From contig NZ_JAHWDF010000006.1 in assembly GCF_019311235.1 (NCBI RefSeq), forward strand, positions 1 through 64,000: a stretch of DNA of 64,000 nt, written 5' to 3'. Shown piece by piece: positions 31,137 to 64,000 of the stretch. The notes under the pieces are model-generated. The model saw only the letters and a list, made by a program, of their open reading frames with translations. It was not told where the DNA came from and did not search any database. Source of the DNA: Mesonia aestuariivivens. Lineage in GTDB: Bacteria > Bacteroidota > Bacteroidia > Flavobacteriales > Flavobacteriaceae. Position 1 is the stretch's first letter; every line of letters starts with the position of its first letter. Position numbers and translations under genes: made by a program.

Positions 31137-32815
31137 TAATTTTTAAATATTTGTTCTAAGATTTTTTCTGTAATTAGATAAGTTGGTTTTACTCCTGTAG
31201 TGCCTAAGCCTCCAGAAGCTAATGTGCTTCCTGTTTCTAAAGGATTATCGCTTGCGTAATAAGCATATCTTACTTTTACTTCTGGTTTGATACTGCCTCG
31301 AAGCTTAGAGGCTGCCTGAATTGCTTTTTGGTAATGTGCACCTTCCATCTCTAGGCCTATTACATTCCAGGTAGAATCATGAAAGAATGCAAGAATGTCT
31401 TTATTTTGAAGCGAAGTTCCTAAGACAGTAATCATAGCTCCCTCATAAACATCGATTCCTTGACCTTCTAAATCTTCTTTTTTCAATTCATTTTCAAACG
31501 GGTAATTATCTGCAGTTCCTTCAAATAAATGAGCTGAAGGAATCATAATATCACCTTTTCTACCTTCAAGAATTCCTGCTTTCCCCATAATTGAGATAGA
31601 ATCTACTTCTAAATGAATTTTCTTTTCTCCCAATTCAAATGGCTTTAGAAGCTCGTCTATAGTCTCGTAAGCTTGTTCTCCAAATGCGTAATCCATCACA
31701 ATAATTACTGGTGCATTTTCATCTTTTGAAGTAGCGAATTTTTCTTCAGGGTGATTTATTTTAGAAGTATCAAAAAGCTGAACATTAATATTAGCGCCGC
31801 TCTTATCTTCAATATAAATCATTCCGTTATCTAAAGCGGTTTTGGTAACTTTTTGACGAAGTTTTCCACTTGCACTATTACTTAATTCTTCATAAATAGC
31901 ATTAATAGGTTTCTTTTTCAATTCTGTTTTTAAGGCAATAGAAGCATAAAGTGTATTCATCACACTATGCATATTTGCACTAATAATGTGAAGCGGTCTT
32001 TGTAAAAGTCCATTTTCAGATAAAGTCTGTTTAATTTTATCTGCCCAAACTTCTCCATGAATATGATGCCCTAAGCGTTCTCTTAATACTGGAGTAAAAG
32101 TGACAATTCTTTTATGGTTACCTAAAGCTTCATCTATAGCTAAACTCCCTAAATTGTAAATAATATTCAGAAACCGCTCAGGATTAGTTGGTGTACTGTA
32201 TAAAGGATGTACTTGCGAGACTTCTTTAAAAGTTCTCCCTAAAATATTTGCTGTATGTGTTAAAGCTATTTCTCGCTCTGCTTTAGTGAGTTCATTTTGT
32301 TTTACCGCAGCTTCTAACTTTTGCCAATCTCTATTTACGCTACCTTCCTCATCGATGATTACTCGTTTCATAATCTTGTGAGATTCGATAAACAAGAAAG
32401 TTAAGTGGGTTAAAATATCGTAAATCTCTGAGCGCCCGCGGGTAATTTCAATATTCATTTGCTCTTCGTCTATACGGTAGCAATTTCTTCTTCTTTTAGG
32501 AGGAACAATAGGGGTAAAATGTGAATCTCCATAACCCTCATCACTGGTAAGATTAATGTATCTACATTCTTCTATCCCTAAAGGTAATCTATCGATCACA
32601 TATAAAAGTCCGTGAAGTTCTAGTTTTTCATCTGCCACAGAGCCGTAAATTTCGGGTCTTAAAATAAGTAAAGCTTCCCGTAATGTTTCACCTGAAACTC
32701 CCATGGGTTTATAAAAACCTCTATTAAAAAGATGGCGCATCGTGATGTACATTCTTTCAATAGCGTTGGAGCTTTCTTGAGCTCTGTTTCTTCCTGTATT
32801 TATTAAATTACTCAT
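31136..32815 (-). CDS. DUF6909 family protein
   Basis: The 559-aa soluble protein starts near residue 19 with the family-typical AIERMYITMRHLFNRGFYKPMG. It also has RRNCYRIDEEQMNIEITRGRSEIYDILTHLTFLFIESHKI and a glycine-rich C-terminus with GSTLASGGLGTTGVKPTYLIT. The second half holds motifs that could bind a nucleotide or phosphate (VIIVMDYAFGEQAYETI, EGRKGDIMIPSAHLFEGTADNYPF, GLEMEGAHYQKAI). The last resembles the purine nucleoside phosphorylase-type EMEGA motif, which is suggestive only. No function is established. It may head the polymer transcript or belong to the housekeeping genes upstream. Confidence 0.78.
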   Translation of the reverse strand: MSNLINTGRNRAQESSNAIERMYITMRHLFNRGFYKPMGVSGETLREALLILRPEIYGSVADEKLELHGLLYVIDRLPLGIEECRYINLTSDEGYGDSHFTPIVPPKRRRNCYRIDEEQMNIEITRGRSEIYDILTHLTFLFIESHKIMKRVIIDEEGSVNRDWQKLEAAVKQNELTKAEREIALTHTANILGRTFKEVSQVHPLYSTPTNPERFLNIIYNLGSLAIDEALGNHKRIVTFTPVLRERLGHHIHGEVWADKIKQTLSENGLLQRPLHIISANMHSVMNTLYASIALKTELKKKPINAIYEELSNSASGKLRQKVTKTALDNGMIYIEDKSGANINVQLFDTSKINHPEEKFATSKDENAPVIIVMDYAFGEQAYETIDELLKPFELGEKKIHLEVDSISIMGKAGILEGRKGDIMIPSAHLFEGTADNYPFENELKKEDLEGQGIDVYEGAMITVLGTSLQNKDILAFFHDSTWNVIGLEMEGAHYQKAIQAASKLRGSIKPEVKVRYAYYASDNPLETGSTLASGGLGTTGVKPTYLITEKILEQIFKN

Positions 32816-40770: not shown

Positions 40771-41331
40771 TTATTCTTCTGTAGAAGTTTCTTCTTCAGT
40801 CTTTTTTGTTTCAGTTACTCCGTATTCTTTATTTAAAGCTTCTAATACTTCGTCTGTGATGTCTTTACCCTCTTTTGCATACATAATGTTTGCAGACTCG
40901 TTAGAACCAAAAATATAAGTATAACCCTTATCTTTACCGTAGTCACCTACAAAATCTTTTACTTTTGTGATTAAAGAGTCAATAATTTTATCACTTTCTT
41001 GACGTAACTGTCCACTTTGCATTTGTTGTTGTCTAGATAACATTTGTTGCTTTTGCATTAACTCTTGTTCTTTTTCTTGACGCTGAGCTGCAGACATAGA
41101 TTGTGACTTACTTTGATATTCTTGAACTTCTGCTTGAAACGCTTTGGCTACAGAATCTAAATTACGTTGAAGTTTTTCTGAGCGTTCATTAAAAATCGCT
41201 TCAGTTTCTTTCATCTCTTTAAAATCTTGAATCAAAATTGTATTATCTACGTAAGCAGTTTTATCTTGATCACAAGAAGTAAGTATAGCTGCGCCAAAGA
41301 TTACCAATGCAATTTTTTTCATCTTTTTCAA
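40771..41331 (-). CDS. OmpH/Skp-like outer membrane chaperone, lipoprotein form
   Basis: The 186-aa protein has a lipoprotein signal, with Cys20 in GAAILTSCDQD. Residues ~38-135 are a long Gln/Glu/Lys-rich coiled coil (ERSEKLQRNLDSVAK, QRQEKEQELMQKQQML), followed by VKDFVGDYGKDKGYTYIFGSNESANIMYAKEGKDITDEVLEALNKEY, the usual OmpH C-terminal pattern in Bacteroidota. Skp-type proteins hold outer-membrane proteins in the periplasm; here the lipid anchor would tether it. The tail is Glu/Thr-rich. Confidence 0.88.
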   Translation of the reverse strand: MKKMKKIALVIFGAAILTSCDQDKTAYVDNTILIQDFKEMKETEAIFNERSEKLQRNLDSVAKAFQAEVQEYQSKSQSMSAAQRQEKEQELMQKQQMLSRQQQMQSGQLRQESDKIIDSLITKVKDFVGDYGKDKGYTYIFGSNESANIMYAKEGKDITDEVLEALNKEYGVTETKKTEEETSTEE

Positions 41332-41539
41332 TTTTATAATTAGTGTTGCGAAAGTAAGAACTATTTTGAAAAAATAATAATTATTTCAACTATTATAAAA
41401 ATCTATGTTATTTTAATTGTAATAAAATAAAACTATCAAAAATAACTTAATTTAAAGTCTTCTAATTAGTTTTATTTAAATCTTTAGCTCATAGATTGTT
41501 TCGTCAATAAAAGTTCGTTAAAAAGCCTATAAATAAGTT

Positions 41540-42400
41540 TTAATATTTCTTGAAGACGTAAATATGGCTAGAATATTCTTTTGTAGATTTTGCTTTAAGG
41601 TTGCTCGTTAAACCTACTCGAAAAGCTTTTAAATAATTAGAACTTCCTGTTTTATATTTTTCTGAAAGTAGACTTACATAATAGGAGTCAAAAATTAAAG
41701 GTAAAGTATTTTGCAATTTGAAATTATGGTTTTTCATTAAGCGCTGTATTCCTTCTTTAGAAAAATGCCAAAGATGTCGCGGCACATCATAAGCTGCCCA
41801 AAACTCTTGATAGTGTTGTGCATCATAACTTTTAAAATTTGGTACAGCAATTATTAGGTAACCATTACTATTTAATAAATAATGAAACTTCTCCAGCTGA
41901 TTTTCTAAATCTGGAATGTGTTCTAACACATGCCAAAGCGTAATCACATCATATGTATCTATTGAAGAAAGTAAAGAAATATCTTCTACTAAATTAATTG
42001 TTTTTTCTTTTGCTAATTTTCTTGCCTGTGCATTTGGCTCTACTCCCCTAACCTTCCAATTTTTTAGCTTAGCCGTTTTTAAGAAATCTCCCGTTCCGGC
42101 TCCAACATCTAATAAACTTTTATCTGAATGTTTAACTAATGAATTTATTAGTTTCACTTTTTTTTGAAGCATTACATTTTTAACGCCTTGATAAAGTTTA
42201 TCAGAAAAGTTTTTAGAAGCATCTGTATGCGAAATGTAATCTTCACTTTGGTAGTATTTAGGAAGACTCTCTAAGCTTGGTTGTGGCTGTGTAATTAAAA
42301 TATCCTGATGATCATTCCAAACCAATTCAAAATTTTCATTAGAAACTGTATGATCTTTACAGGAAATATATACCTGAGAAGTAGAATTAATATATGTCAT
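41540..42400 (-). CDS. class I SAM-dependent methyltransferase
   Basis: The 286-aa protein has the AdoMet motif I LLDVGAGTGDFLKTA (~93-107), the acidic VRGVEPN, and DVITLWHVLEHIPDLENQLEKFHYLL typical of Methyltransf_23-like enzymes. An N-terminal ~50-residue extension with C-x-D-H and NxExxxLxWN segments precedes it. The substrate is unknown. This family is common in surface-glycan or lipid modification in flavobacteria. It shares one base with the lipoprotein gene upstream and has a 208-bp gene-free stretch downstream. Confidence 0.85.
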   Translation of the reverse strand: MTYINSTSQVYISCKDHTVSNENFELVWNDHQDILITQPQPSLESLPKYYQSEDYISHTDASKNFSDKLYQGVKNVMLQKKVKLINSLVKHSDKSLLDVGAGTGDFLKTAKLKNWKVRGVEPNAQARKLAKEKTINLVEDISLLSSIDTYDVITLWHVLEHIPDLENQLEKFHYLLNSNGYLIIAVPNFKSYDAQHYQEFWAAYDVPRHLWHFSKEGIQRLMKNHNFKLQNTLPLIFDSYYVSLLSEKYKTGSSNYLKAFRVGLTSNLKAKSTKEYSSHIYVFKKY

Positions 42401-42914: not shown

Positions 42915-43415
42915 CTAATTAAGATAATATCTAAAATCATTAAGCTTTTTAAGCACAGCTTTTCTACGATCATCATCTTCAGAAAATACATCTTTACCCT
43001 GCAAATCTTTCACTTTTACGTAAACATAATTATAAACATCATCTCCATCTTTTGATATATGATCGCTTTCAATTGCATCTTCAAAACCTATCACATAATT
43101 AAATATAGCAGTGAATAAATCTATCTTTTTATCTTGATCTGAGCTCAAGTAAAAACTCACCTCTAATTCTTCTTTCGGGTAAAGAATTTTAGTTTTAAAA
43201 GGTTCTGGCAAATAATCTTTTTCAATTTGAAAAAATCTCCTAGCCTTAGGATAAAAAGAAATTCGACTTGCATTTAAATGAAACCCATAAGAAATTGCTC
43301 CGTTCTTTAATCTTGAATCGTACAATTTGTAGCTATCAATCCTTCTTGCTTTATGGATTCTAAAACAAGATTGAAAGGTAAAAACCAATACAAAAAGTAA
43401 AATTATTTTCTTCAA
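42915..43415 (-). CDS. small lipoprotein, paralog B of a tandem pair
   Basis: This 166-aa protein of unknown function has the same lipoprotein signal (Cys17 in FTFQSC) and layout as paralog A: an EKDYLPEPFKTKILYPKEELEVSFYLSSDQDKKIDLF core and a VKDLQGKDVF tail. The two genes arose by tandem duplication. A parS-like palindrome lies 10 bp upstream of its start, between this gene and mnmG. Confidence 0.75.
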   Translation of the reverse strand: MKKIILLFVLVFTFQSCFRIHKARRIDSYKLYDSRLKNGAISYGFHLNASRISFYPKARRFFQIEKDYLPEPFKTKILYPKEELEVSFYLSSDQDKKIDLFTAIFNYVIGFEDAIESDHISKDGDDVYNYVYVKVKDLQGKDVFSEDDDRRKAVLKKLNDFRYYLN

Positions 43416-43424
43416 AATTAATAT

Positions 43425-43440
43425 TGTTCCACGTGGAACA
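43425..43440. promoter_or_regulatory. parS-like ParB-binding site, copy 1
   Basis: TGTTCCACGTGGAACA is a perfect 16-bp palindrome with a CACGTG core, matching the bacterial parS consensus (TGTTNCACGTGNAACA). It is intergenic, between mnmG and paralog B. A 25-bp block around it is identical to copy 2. Confidence 0.8.
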
Positions 43441-43447
43441 TTTTAAA

Positions 43448-45319
43448 TTACCTACCCATAAAAACTAAAAGTACCGATATATCTGCAGGACTTACTCCAC
43501 TTACTCTTGAAGCTTGAGATACGGTTTTTGGTTGAATTTTATTCAATTTTTCTCTCGCTTCCATAGACATTGATTGTAATTTCATATAATCGAAATCTGA
43601 AGGAATTTTCAAGTTTTCTAAACGATGGAGTTTATCTGCATTATTTTTTTCCTTTTCAATATAACCAGAATACTTCACCTGAATTTCTGTTTGCTCCAAT
43701 ACTTCGTGATCAAACTGATGCTCTTGAATGTACTTCTCTACAGAATCAATTTTTCGCATATCATCCATCGATATATTAGGACGCGCAAAAACCTTAAACA
43801 TCTTACCGCTTTGCTTTACAGTTGCTGAATTATTCGCTTCTAATATCGGATTTATTTCTTCAGGATTAACACTTGTTTCTCTAAAAAAAGAGACAAATGC
43901 ATCTGAAGAGTCTTTCTTCGACTCCATTCGCACCATACGTTTTTGAGAAGCTAAACCAAGTTTATACGATTTTTCTGTTAATCTAAAGTCCGCATTATCT
44001 TGTCGTAAAAGCGTTCTGTACTCAGCTCGTGATGTAAACATACGATAAGGCTCTTCTGTTCCTTTAGTAATTAAATCGTCTATTAAAACACCTATATAAG
44101 CTTCATCTCTACTTAATACAAATTCTTCTCGTTCTTGAACTTTCAATGCTGCATTAATACCAGCCATTAATCCTTGGCAAGCTGCTTCTTCATAACCAGT
44201 GGTTCCGTTAATTTGACCGGCAAAATATAAACCTTCTACCAGTTTAGTTTCTAACGTATGTTGTAACTGTGTAGGTGGAAAATAGTCATACTCGATAGCG
44301 TAACCAGGTCTAAAAAACTTTACGTTTTCAAAACCAGCTACAGATTTCAAGGCTTTATACTGAACATCTTCTGGCAACGAAGTTGAAAACCCATTCACAT
44401 AATATTCTACGGTTTTCCATCCTTCTGGTTCAACAAATAATTGATGACGATCTTTATCTGCAAAACGATTTATTTTATCTTCTATACTGGGGCAATATCT
44501 AGGTCCAACACTTTCAATTCTTCCATTAAACATAGGAGAACGATCAAAGCCTTCTTTTAATAAATTATGTACTTCTGGAGAAGTATAGGTCATATGACAA
44601 GAACGTTGTTCTTTTAAAGGTTTCGTCACATCCAGATAAGAAAACTTTGCTGGAACATCATCTCCTGGTTGTTCTACCATTTTAGAAAAATCTAACGAAC
44701 GTCCATCCACTCTTGGCGGCGTTCCTGTTTTCATTCTTCCCGACTCAAAACCAAGATTAAGTAAATCTGCAGTAATTCCTGTGGCAGCTCTTTCACCAGA
44801 TCTTCCACCACCAAAATTCTTTTCTCCAATATGTATTAGTCCGTTAAGAAAAGTACCATTGGTCAGCACTACACTTTTAGCTTTTATCTCTAAACCTAGA
44901 AATGTTTTTACGCCGGTTACTTTTCCGTTTTCAGAAAGAATACCTGAAACCATTTCTTGGTAAAAATCTAAGTTTGGAGTTTGTTCTAACATTAAACGCC
45001 AATCTTCAGCAAAACGCATGCGGTCACTTTGCACACGCGGACTCCACATAGCGGGTCCTTTAGATTTATTCAGCATTTTAAATTGAATAGCACTAGTGTC
45101 ACTTACAATTCCGCTATAGCCACCCAAAGCATCAATTTCACGAACAATTTGCCCTTTAGCAATACCTCCCATTGCAGGGTTACAAGACATTTGTGCTATA
45201 TTTTGCAAATTCATCGTGACTAATAAGGTTTTACTTCCCATATTAGCAGCGGCAGCGGCAGCTTCACTTCCTGCGTGGCCACCTCCTACTACTATTACAT
45301 CATATTCTTTATCAAACAT
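43448..45319 (-). CDS. mnmG: tRNA U34 carboxymethylaminomethyl-modifying enzyme, FAD subunit
   Basis: At 623 aa it is standard length for MnmG (GidA). It has the dinucleotide-binding motif VVGGGHAGSEAA at residues ~10-21, QMSCNPAMGGIAKGQIVREIDALGG, the second FAD segment GLYFAGQINGTTGYEEAACQGLMAGINAA and the helical C-terminal domain. With MnmE it builds cmnm5 on wobble uridine of several tRNAs, using FAD and a folate methylene group. It lies between two parS-like sites. Confidence 0.97.
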   Translation of the reverse strand: MFDKEYDVIVVGGGHAGSEAAAAAANMGSKTLLVTMNLQNIAQMSCNPAMGGIAKGQIVREIDALGGYSGIVSDTSAIQFKMLNKSKGPAMWSPRVQSDRMRFAEDWRLMLEQTPNLDFYQEMVSGILSENGKVTGVKTFLGLEIKAKSVVLTNGTFLNGLIHIGEKNFGGGRSGERAATGITADLLNLGFESGRMKTGTPPRVDGRSLDFSKMVEQPGDDVPAKFSYLDVTKPLKEQRSCHMTYTSPEVHNLLKEGFDRSPMFNGRIESVGPRYCPSIEDKINRFADKDRHQLFVEPEGWKTVEYYVNGFSTSLPEDVQYKALKSVAGFENVKFFRPGYAIEYDYFPPTQLQHTLETKLVEGLYFAGQINGTTGYEEAACQGLMAGINAALKVQEREEFVLSRDEAYIGVLIDDLITKGTEEPYRMFTSRAEYRTLLRQDNADFRLTEKSYKLGLASQKRMVRMESKKDSSDAFVSFFRETSVNPEEINPILEANNSATVKQSGKMFKVFARPNISMDDMRKIDSVEKYIQEHQFDHEVLEQTEIQVKYSGYIEKEKNNADKLHRLENLKIPSDFDYMKLQSMSMEAREKLNKIQPKTVSQASRVSGVSPADISVLLVFMGR

Positions 45320-45333
45320 TACCTTATAAATTT

Positions 45334-45753
45334 CTATTGTTCCACGTGGAACATTTTAATTTTTTCATTTTCTTTAGCACGCATTAACTGTGCATCTTCT
45401 TCAGATTTATCTTTATAACCACAAAAGTGTAAAAGACCGTGAGCAATTACTCGTTTTAATTCTTCATCAAAAGAAACCTTAAATTTTAATGCATTTTCCG
45501 CTACACGCTCAGTGCTTATAAAAATATCACCATGTAAAATATTACCTACAGTATTATCAAAACTGATGATGTCTGTATAGTCGTCATGATTTAAATACTT
45601 TACATTTATATCATGTAAATATTCATCATCACAAAAAATATAATTGATATCTCCTTCTTTCTTTTCTTCTGATATTAAAACCTTACGCAACCAATTTTCA
45701 TAAGTTGGTTTATTCTCTAATTCGAAATTATTTTCATTAAAAAAATTAATCAT
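45334..45753 (-). CDS. ybeY: rRNA maturation endoribonuclease YbeY
   Basis: The 139-aa metalloprotein has the zinc-site motif HGLLHFCGYKDK (~107-118) and DIISFDNTVGNILHGDIFIS, typical of YbeY. The third metal ligand position, His in most bacteria (GYDH), is Asp-Lys here (GYKDK), as is common in Bacteroidota. It takes part in 16S rRNA 3' processing and ribosome quality control. It overlaps the DUF4175 gene by 8 bp (45746-45753), and its last codons carry a parS-like palindrome. Confidence 0.94.
   Translation of the reverse strand: MINFFNENNFELENKPTYENWLRKVLISEEKKEGDINYIFCDDEYLHDINVKYLNHDDYTDIISFDNTVGNILHGDIFISTERVAENALKFKVSFDEELKRVIAHGLLHFCGYKDKSEEDAQLMRAKENEKIKMFHVEQ
45338..45353. promoter_or_regulatory. 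parS-like ParB-binding site, copy 2 (inside ybeY)
   Basis: The same 16-bp palindrome TGTTCCACGTGGAACA, 1.9 kb from copy 1. It overlaps the last codons of ybeY, where it encodes Phe-His-Val-Glu within the terminal peptide MFHVEQ. Confidence 0.8.
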
Positions 45754-60894: not shown

Positions 60895-63099
60895 CTAAGC
60901 TTCTATTTCTTTACGAGCACCTATTAAATTAAAATCTAAATGACGTTTTACTAAATCGGCATTTTTTACCGTTACGTAAACCTCGTCACCTAGTTGATAT
61001 ACTTTATCTGAATCTCTACCAACAATGGCAAAGTTATCTTGATCGAACTCAAAATGATCTTCTTTAATATCGCGTAAACGTACCATACCTTCACATTTAT
61101 TTTGCTCGATTTCTACGTAGATTCCCCATTCGGTCACTCCAGAAATAACACCAAGAAATTGTTCATTTTGGTGATCTTGCATAAACTTCACCTGCATATA
61201 TTTAATAGAATCTCGCTCGGCACTGGTAGCAAACATTTCCATATCGCTACAATGGTTACAACGACCTTCATATTCTTCTTCGTTAGCAGATTTTTCTCCG
61301 TCAAGGTAATGTTGCAATAAACGATGCGCCATGACATCTGGATAACGCCTAATAGGAGAAGTAAAATGTGAATAATAATCGAAGGCTAAACCGTAATGAC
61401 CAATATTTTGAGTACTGTAATAGGCTTTACTCATGGTACGAATAGTCAAGGTATCGACCATGTTCTGTTCTTTTTTACCTTGAACATCTTTTAAAAGTCC
61501 GTTTAAAGAGCTGCTCACCGATTTTCTATCTTTCAGGTTAAGCTTGTAACCAAACTTACCTACGAGGCTTTCTAATGCCGCTAATTTATCGTCATTGGGT
61601 TCGTCGTGACAACGGTAAACAAATGTTTTTTGTGGCTCTTGCTTGCCAATAAATTCTGAAACTTTTTTGTTAGCCAACAACATAAATTCTTCAATAAGTT
61701 TATTGGCATCTTTAGAGGTTTTAAAATAAACACCAATTGGTTCATTGTCTTCATCTAAATTGAATTTCACTTCAACTTTATCAAAAGAAATAGCTCCACT
61801 TGCCATTCGTTTGCTTCTCATTTTTTTTGCTAAACGGTCTAAGGTCAACACTGCATCTACAATTTCTGGTTGTGCTTCGTAAGCCTCATCTGTAATTGAA
61901 ATTTCAGCTGGTATTTTTCCTCTTTTTGTTTCAATAATTTGTTGTGCTTCTTCATAAGCAAAACGAGCATCACTGTAAGTAACCGTTCTACCGAACCAAT
62001 TATTGACTACTTGCGCATTTTTATTGATTTCAAAAACTGCTGAAAAGGTATATTTTTCTTCGTGCGGTCGTAAGGAACACGCATTATTTGATAAAACTTC
62101 TGGAAGCATTGGCACTACGCGATCTACCAAATAAATAGAGGTGCCACGTTCGTAAGCTTCTTCATCTAAAATAGTACCTGGTTGCAGGTAATGTGAAACA
62201 TCTGCAATGTGAATACCAACTTCGTAATTACCATTTTCTAAGATTTTAAAACTTAGCGCATCATCAAAATCTTTGGCATCTTTGGGATCTATCGTAAAGG
62301 TAAGTCTATCGCGCATATCGCGACGCTTTTTGATTTCACTTTCTTGTATTGAAGTATCTAAATTATTTGCAAATTCTTCTACTTCTTTCGGGAAATCTGT
62401 CGGTAAACCGTTTTCTGCTAAAATAGATTGCATTTCGGTTTCATGACTTCCTGCTTCTCCTAAAACTTCAATTATTTTACCATTTGGAGAGTCTTTCTTT
62501 TCTGACCAACTTTCCATTTTCACTAAAACTACTAAACCGTCTTTAGCTTCTTCAGTAATGTTTTCTTTCGGAATAAATATATCGGTATACATTTTAGGAT
62601 TTTGCACTTCTACAAATCCAAAATTGTCATTAAGTCGTAATATTCCTACAAAATTTTCTTTCTTTCGGGTGATAACTTCTACGACTTCTCCTTCACTTTT
62701 TCTTCCTTTTCGTTGGCGATAAACGTATACTTTTACCTCGTCGCCATCTAACGCTCTGTTTAAATTTTTACTAGGTATATAAATATCATCTTCTAATTCT
62801 TCTACAATCACATAACCATCTTTACGAGTAGTCATGTCTAACTTACCGGTAAAATAATTAACGCGTTCGTTAATTTGAAATTTACCAGGATCTGCTTGTA
62901 AAATTTGTTTGCCTTTGGTGAGTTTCGCTAATTCTTTAATAATTTGATTTCTGCTATTTGCATCGTTTACATCAAGTTTAGCAGCGATTTGCTTGTAATT
63001 AAAGTTTTGGCTTGGATTTTTTCTTAATATATCTAAGATCTTTTTAGAAAGACCTGCAATGCTTTTAGTATTATTTTTTTTACTTCTTCGTTTTGCCAT
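60895..63099 (-). CDS. rnr: ribonuclease R
   Basis: The 734-aa 3'-5' exoribonuclease begins with an HTH-like domain (SKKILDILRKNPSQNFNYKQIAAKL), followed by two cold-shock domains, and the RNB catalytic domain with TIDPKDAKDFDDALSF (D residues binding Mg2+, ~residues 270-285). It ends in an S1 domain (GVISGVTEWGIYVEIEQNKCEGMVRL). It degrades structured RNA. The flanking upstream gap contains a 14-bp inverted repeat. Confidence 0.96.
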   Translation of the reverse strand: MAKRRSKKNNTKSIAGLSKKILDILRKNPSQNFNYKQIAAKLDVNDANSRNQIIKELAKLTKGKQILQADPGKFQINERVNYFTGKLDMTTRKDGYVIVEELEDDIYIPSKNLNRALDGDEVKVYVYRQRKGRKSEGEVVEVITRKKENFVGILRLNDNFGFVEVQNPKMYTDIFIPKENITEEAKDGLVVLVKMESWSEKKDSPNGKIIEVLGEAGSHETEMQSILAENGLPTDFPKEVEEFANNLDTSIQESEIKKRRDMRDRLTFTIDPKDAKDFDDALSFKILENGNYEVGIHIADVSHYLQPGTILDEEAYERGTSIYLVDRVVPMLPEVLSNNACSLRPHEEKYTFSAVFEINKNAQVVNNWFGRTVTYSDARFAYEEAQQIIETKRGKIPAEISITDEAYEAQPEIVDAVLTLDRLAKKMRSKRMASGAISFDKVEVKFNLDEDNEPIGVYFKTSKDANKLIEEFMLLANKKVSEFIGKQEPQKTFVYRCHDEPNDDKLAALESLVGKFGYKLNLKDRKSVSSSLNGLLKDVQGKKEQNMVDTLTIRTMSKAYYSTQNIGHYGLAFDYYSHFTSPIRRYPDVMAHRLLQHYLDGEKSANEEEYEGRCNHCSDMEMFATSAERDSIKYMQVKFMQDHQNEQFLGVISGVTEWGIYVEIEQNKCEGMVRLRDIKEDHFEFDQDNFAIVGRDSDKVYQLGDEVYVTVKNADLVKRHLDFNLIGARKEIEA

Positions 63100-63469: not shown

Positions 63470-63709
63470 ATGAAAAATTATCTCCCTTTAGCTACTTTCA
63501 ATAATCCTTTTGAATACGCTGTATTAAAATCAATTTTAGAACGTGAAGGTATTCGTTTCTTTTTTCAAAACGAAACTATTATTGGCTTGCTTCCTTTTTA
63601 TTCTTCTCCCTCAGGAGGTATCCATTTAAAAATTCATCAAGAAGACTTTCAAGAAGCAAAGATACTGTTTGAAGAATTTAAATACAATTCTCATTTAAAA
63701 ATTACCTGA
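63470..63709 (+). CDS. DUF2007 domain protein (putative signal transducing protein)
   Basis: The 79-aa protein has LATFNNPFEYAVLKSILEREGI (residues 7-28) and HLKIHQEDFQEAKILFEEF near the end, the DUF2007 pattern, a small alpha/beta fold related to ferredoxin-like/PII-type folds. Its function is not established. It is the last gene before the AT-rich, gene-free right edge. Confidence 0.85.
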   Translation: MKNYLPLATFNNPFEYAVLKSILEREGIRFFFQNETIIGLLPFYSSPSGGIHLKIHQEDFQEAKILFEEFKYNSHLKIT

Positions 63710-64000
63710 GTTTAGTTGTTATCAACAACATATATTATTATTAATCTTTTTTGTAAAATTTTAAATATAAATGATGTTATATGATTGTTTGTGAATAGCG
63801 GTATAATTAGTTTAAATTATATTTTGTTTTGTTCTTATCTAACATGATTAAACAGCTATTAACAAGTATTGTTAATAGTAATAAACTGATAATCAAATTG
63901 CTTATTTTGGTTATTAACAATTTTCATGTTGAGTGTATAATTTAGAAAAGTTAATTGATTTTTTTACATTTTGTTGTTAATAACCTGTGATTAGCTCTTA
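63710..64000. other. AT-rich gene-free region with DnaA-box-like 9-mers (candidate oriC edge)
   Basis: No gene is visible in 291 bp. Five sites resembling a DnaA box occur: TTATCAACA (63719-63727), CTATTAACA (63856-63864), its exact inverted copy TGTTAATAG (63870-63878), TTATTAACA (63911-63919) and TGTTAATAA (63975-63983, inverted). The middle pair forms a perfect palindrome with a 5-nt spacer. They differ by one or more bases from the classical TTATCCACA, so the reading is tentative. Confidence 0.45.

Follow-up and report, generated by a model that had tools for sequence, protein, structure and literature searches.

The region under study lies in a window of 64,000 nucleotides that forms the first part of a 192-kb contig (NZ_JAHWDF010000006.1) of Mesonia aestuariivivens, and coordinates refer to this window unless stated otherwise. 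A scan of the window revealed two identical 16-bp perfect palindromes, approximately 1.9 kb apart with mnmG between them, each of which is contained within an identical 25-bp block, TATTGTTCCACGTGGAACATTTTAA. The original observation that a pair of identical parS-like palindromes within a shared 25-bp block flanks mnmG was confirmed in its particulars. The features of the locus, and of the region further to the right that is considered below, are as follows:

40771 to 42400, minus strand: Skp-like and methyltransferase-like genes, with family matches below curated cut-offs; parS lies beside them in genome G023
43425 to 43440, no strand: parS site 1, TGTTCCACGTGGAACA, between the 3' end of mnmG and an open reading frame at 42915-43415; its counterpart is downstream of mnmG in relatives
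43448 to 45319, minus strand: mnmG (gidA), TIGR00136, 844 bits, between both parS sites
45334 to 45753, minus strand: ybeY, TIGR00043, 108 bits
45338 to 45353, no strand: parS site 2, TGTTCCACGTGGAACA, in the last codons of ybeY, 18 bp before the mnmG start codon; its counterpart is upstream of mnmG in relatives
57593, no strand: third-position cumulative GC-skew minimum of the 192-kb contig
60895 to 63099, minus strand: rnr (RNase R), TIGR02063, 730 bits, left neighbour of the candidate oriC
63707 to 64000, continuing to contig position 64,237, no strand: candidate oriC, the AT-rich rnr-rpiB intergenic region, with TTATNNACA boxes and partly conserved across genera

Site 2 is not intergenic, in that translation of 45334-45753 on the minus strand shows it to encode the YbeY C-terminus, ...KMFHVEQ. 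This double use of a parS sequence as the coding end of ybeY is not peculiar to the present organism, tails such as MFHVEQ recurring in several lineages. The closest named relatives of a neighbouring DUF4175-like protein are found in Mesonia and Salegentibacter (75-83% identity).

Within the window, the two sites are the only matches to TGTTCCACGTGGAACA at up to three mismatches; shuffled windows contained a mean of 0.08 matches, and none contained two. The search was extended to the whole genome (3,328,752 bases in 73 contigs, 99.5% complete), in which the parS pattern TGTTNCACGTGNAACA is present at two places, both of them flanking mnmG, against a chance expectation of approximately 0.01 on the basis of independent bases and a count of zero for the reversed control. 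The two palindromes are the only full-consensus parS sites of the chromosome, and the many evenly scattered copies that would have spoken against a centromere were not encountered. Allowing one mismatch in the 14-bp core added a single place genome-wide, at 32685 (GTTTCACCTGAAAC), which was rejected as a third parS site since the control count was likewise 1, indicating a chance match.

Conservation of the sites was examined across the family and the phylum. The full parS pattern is present in 108 of 120 family genomes, the reversed control being absent from all 120, and the 14-bp core was found in 11 of the 12 genomes that do not have the full pattern. Comparison by hand placed this core beside mnmG in ten of the 11 core-only genomes, the eleventh (G035) having no mnmG match above the cut-off; in the remaining genome, G005, neither full pattern nor core was found, and an mnmG match is also absent. 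Site places were listed for 46 of the 108 full-pattern genomes, the present genome not being among them, and of the 75 sites in these 46 genomes, 72 are no more than 3 kb from mnmG, 48 on its upstream and 24 on its downstream side. The three others are far from mnmG and all belong to G023, the one genome of the 46 without sites adjoining mnmG; exact sites are present on both sides of the gene in 23. At the level of the phylum, a full-pattern site is present in 37 of 46 sampled genomes (own included) and absent from nine, which were searched for the full pattern only. The locus was examined in 29 of the 36 other genomes with sites (two of the 29 being from the same family); mnmG lies within the 3-kb locus in 28 of these, and in the remaining one the site adjoins ybeY at the end of a contig.

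One conserved gene, located several kb downstream from mnmG, repeatedly contains a parS look-alike with one or two mismatches (L115:2802, L142:1355, L146:2032 and L150:4936). The look-alike, which is 8-10 kb from mnmG in G059, G068 and G040, and 6 kb away in G032, encodes the conserved motif LPRETAGY and was rejected as parS, since it is probably a coding coincidence.

The 25 identical bases common to both copies could be taken to indicate that a recent duplication or mobile element has copied the block to both sides of mnmG. However, in several relatives, G027, G082, G101 and G111 among them, the sites differ from each other at the variable positions, with both positions kept, and the probability attached to this explanation is practically negligible. 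Similarly, a palindromic CACGTG core could fit many dimeric regulators, and the sites might belong to an unrelated transcription factor. This is a most improbable reading given that there are two full copies genome-wide, at one place, that the sites of phylum relatives are beside mnmG and near the skew origin, and that a chromosomal ParB is present; few copies at a single origin-near place, recurring across the phylum, form the pattern of a centromere as opposed to a regulon.

The tight placement of the palindromes on either side of mnmG could also be explained if they were a cis-regulatory element of the ybeY-mnmG operon, or an RNA hairpin serving it as terminator or attenuator. Indeed, the palindrome folds into a 6-bp hairpin (about -7.1 kcal/mol), and in a terminator scan the plus strand was flagged at both sites and the minus strand at site 1. 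The four-T run 3' of the hairpin, however, is on the plus strand, opposite to the direction of transcription of the flanking genes, the CACGTG loop is itself part of the conserved pattern, and of 53 distinct upstream sites inspected, the present one among them, 19 run into the coding end of ybeY.

Genome G023 is also informative in this respect. Here, mnmG is located at 1277 kb, whereas three parS sites are found at 997-999 kb (L100:1143-2781, equivalent to G023:C1:997143-998781), some 280 kb away, and no site with up to two mismatches was detected in the 20 kb fetched around mnmG. The three sites adjoin counterparts of skp (40% identity), the methyltransferase gene (49%), a LysE-like gene and rnr (60%), with the end of rnr 3 kb from the first site and all sites within 7 kb of it. 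Conversely, mnmG, folB and glnS are located elsewhere than the sites, and neither rpiB nor ybeY was found in the 20 stretches fetched from this genome. The sites therefore appear to remain where they are on the chromosome even if mnmG is relocated. This speaks against their having a function in mnmG expression and indicates that they belong to the place and not to the gene, although the skew in G023 is too weak to position an origin there. On the grounds of strand, conserved loop and G023, the terminator or attenuator reading was rejected, and a regulatory role of this kind is considered very unlikely.

The alternative to these explanations, that the palindromes are ParB-binding parS sites, would be difficult to sustain in a genome devoid of parAB. 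This is not the case. One ParB gene scores above the family cut-off (TIGR00180; 167 versus 58 bits), on a contig other than that carrying parS, and an open reading frame for a ParA-like protein, recognised by eye from its KGGVGKTT motif, is directly upstream; this is the one parA-parB pair in the genome. The ParB protein matches 16 distinct solved sequences, including ParB, Spo0J and Noc, and contains the stretches GERRFRA and ENIQR, aligned with Spo0J, which we take to be CTP-binding motifs. Binding of ParB to the palindromes, followed by CTP-dependent spreading, is predicted at the level of these motifs.

It was also anticipated that parS would load SMC. The condensin search comprised Smc and ScpA. 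The best Smc match in the genome reached 34.5 bits, the cut-off being 567, and ScpA gave no matches, whereas in 14 control genomes Smc was above the cut-off in ten and ScpA was found in nine. SMC loading at parS is therefore without support in this organism. ParA, ParB and parS are present together in a genome with no Smc above cut-off and no detected ScpA.

Next, the position of the replication origin was considered, using GC skew at third codon positions to lessen the effects of gene orientation. The cumulative minimum on the contig is at 57,593, approximately 12 kb from the parS pair at 43.4 and 45.3 kb; the contig extends only 43 kb to the left of the pair, and third-position skew in this part is mixed in sign. 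In contiguous stretches of three relatives, the corresponding minima are 16-25 kb from parS, at 916,443 versus 932,006 in G014, 385,831 versus 360,829 in G059, and 219,344 versus sites at about 200.5 and 202.4 kb in G040. Whole-base skew indicates the same neighbourhood less precisely, with minima at 77,012 of the contig, which is beyond the window and 32 kb from the pair, and at 889,867 (G014), 405,013 (G059) and 228,437 (G040), which are 42, 44 and 26 kb from the respective sites. The expectation that an origin would be close by was accordingly borne out on the same contig, by both measures, with relatives giving a similar picture.

Five chromosomes were additionally sampled coarsely, more densely near parS in most, for a fit of skew over the whole chromosome. 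G014 and G059 fit an origin at parS, the score of parS being equalled at 1.5% and 1.8% of positions, respectively. The best origin fit in G021 is at 1160-1200 kb, with mnmG at 1165 kb, whereas dnaA, at 3286 kb, scores -0.13 versus +0.14 and is near the terminus, at the opposite pole; of 21 skew samples, that at 3750 kb was of the wrong sign and that at 3100 kb was zero. The skew of the other two chromosomes is too weak to be used: the best fit in G078 is close to parS, yet 16% of positions give an equal score, and in G023 the best fit is at 500-600 kb, parS scoring no better than chance. A small number of sites, clustered close to the origin, is seen in the present genome, in the three relatives and in the G021 fit. 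Together with the two full-pattern copies genome-wide, the parAB genes and a skew origin on the same contig, these data uphold the identification of the palindromes as parS, with ParB binding as its prediction.

Of the 120 family genomes, 16 are single-contig assemblies. In all 16, dnaA is 0.83-1.92 Mb from mnmG (two lengths being rounded), and parB is 0.59-1.47 Mb from mnmG, so that the position of parAB or of dnaA is no guide to the parS region in these relatives.

The rnr-rpiB intergenic region, from 63,707 onward and approximately 18 kb from mnmG, is proposed as a candidate oriC, judging from its sequence features and position. The gap (window 63,707-64,000, continuing as L007:1-237 to contig position 64,237) is noncoding, has an AT fraction of 0.78 and can be partly aligned between genera. 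The third-position minima lie 5.5, 4.6, 0.4 and 0.7 kb from it in the present genome, G014, G059 and G040, respectively, the whole-base minima being farther away, and the gene order running from pgk via mnmG to rnr is largely kept in the three relatives. The gap holds four relaxed DnaA boxes, TTATNNACA, the highest density in any 600 bp along the 192-kb contig. The rnr-rpiB arrangement was found in seven of nine segments (own included), with the gap 5-25 kb from mnmG; it was not found in the stretches fetched from G021 and G032, which therefore carry no weight either way. In G056 the gap is 5.5 kb from mnmG but on the opposite side. In six of the seven segments, G059 being the exception, the window richest in TTATNNACA boxes, or one tied for this rank, falls in the gap or overlaps it, although the pattern was chosen after viewing the rnr-rpiB region, so that its enrichment there is not an independent test, and the stretches of G068, G118 and G056, inspected for it afterwards, serve as a partial check. 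Clusters of TTATCCACA (one mismatch allowed, four per 500 bp) were found neither on the contig nor in 16 further stretches of 19-20 kb near dnaA, parB or mnmG.

Collectively, the locus is very probably an ordinary and widely shared ParABS centromere, situated in an origin region away from dnaA, at which ParB is predicted to bind. We infer that ParB, whose gene lies with that of ParA on a different contig, would bind each palindrome, form a closed CTP clamp and from there slide along the adjoining DNA; the 1.9-kb spacing of the sites would then give rise to one ParB-coated domain over mnmG. ParA would move this domain, segregating the origin region just after it has been copied. Replication itself would start not at dnaA but a short way from mnmG, probably at the rnr-rpiB intergenic region some 18 kb off. 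The broader proposal for the Flavobacteriaceae, namely an unannotated rnr-rpiB origin with relaxed DnaA boxes coupled to a parS pair at mnmG through which ParA and ParB segregate the chromosome without SMC-ScpAB, with dnaA and parAB up to nearly half a chromosome away, is one to which we would give even odds.

The present sites share with chromosomal ParABS systems the 16-bp palindrome, the CACGTG core, a low copy number, proximity to the skew origin, and the presence of genes for both ParA and ParB. Compared with the chromosomal consensus, TGTTTCACGTGAAACA (Spo0J-ParB), as quoted in PMC10197239, they carry C and G at the two variable positions (TGTTCC...GGAACA), and the system differs also in the lack of Smc above cut-off and of detected ScpA, and in the distance of dnaA and parB from mnmG in relatives. 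Closeness of parS to the origin is general (PMC7333895). According to the passages available from PMC10197239, a Hi-C study, the origins of the gut Bacteroidetes Bacteroides caecimuris and Muribaculum intestinale were placed by parS and GC skew, the origin was not systematically paired with dnaA in a gut set including these two, and neither has a known condensin homologue; the mnmG flanks and rnr-rpiB are absent from those passages. In the Flavobacteriaceae, excerpts of the accounts of Mariniflexile (PMC11278836) and Algorimicrobium (PMC12843772) predict oriC near mnmG by Ori-Finder and GC skew. In the Mariniflexile excerpts, dnaA failed to fit the skew, and a figure legend labels ori and ter opposite to the text. 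There is no parS in the excerpts of either account, whereas here the third-position minimum and box cluster point to rnr-rpiB. Thus far, dnaA-distant, parS-marked origins (PMC10197239) and mnmG-adjacent predicted origins (PMC11278836, PMC12843772) are already in print. No account of a parS-mnmG-parS arrangement throughout the family, or of the rnr-rpiB candidate, turned up in the titles, abstracts and passages searched, although the key comparative work, Livny 2007, may list the sites.

The parS pair provides a simple origin marker for the Flavobacteriaceae, in which dnaA misleads, and growth-rate estimates based on coverage, or rotation of genomes at dnaA, would err in this family. Moreover, as the data point to a ParB-parS centromere in a genome without detected Smc or ScpA, the question of what organises such chromosomes becomes testable.
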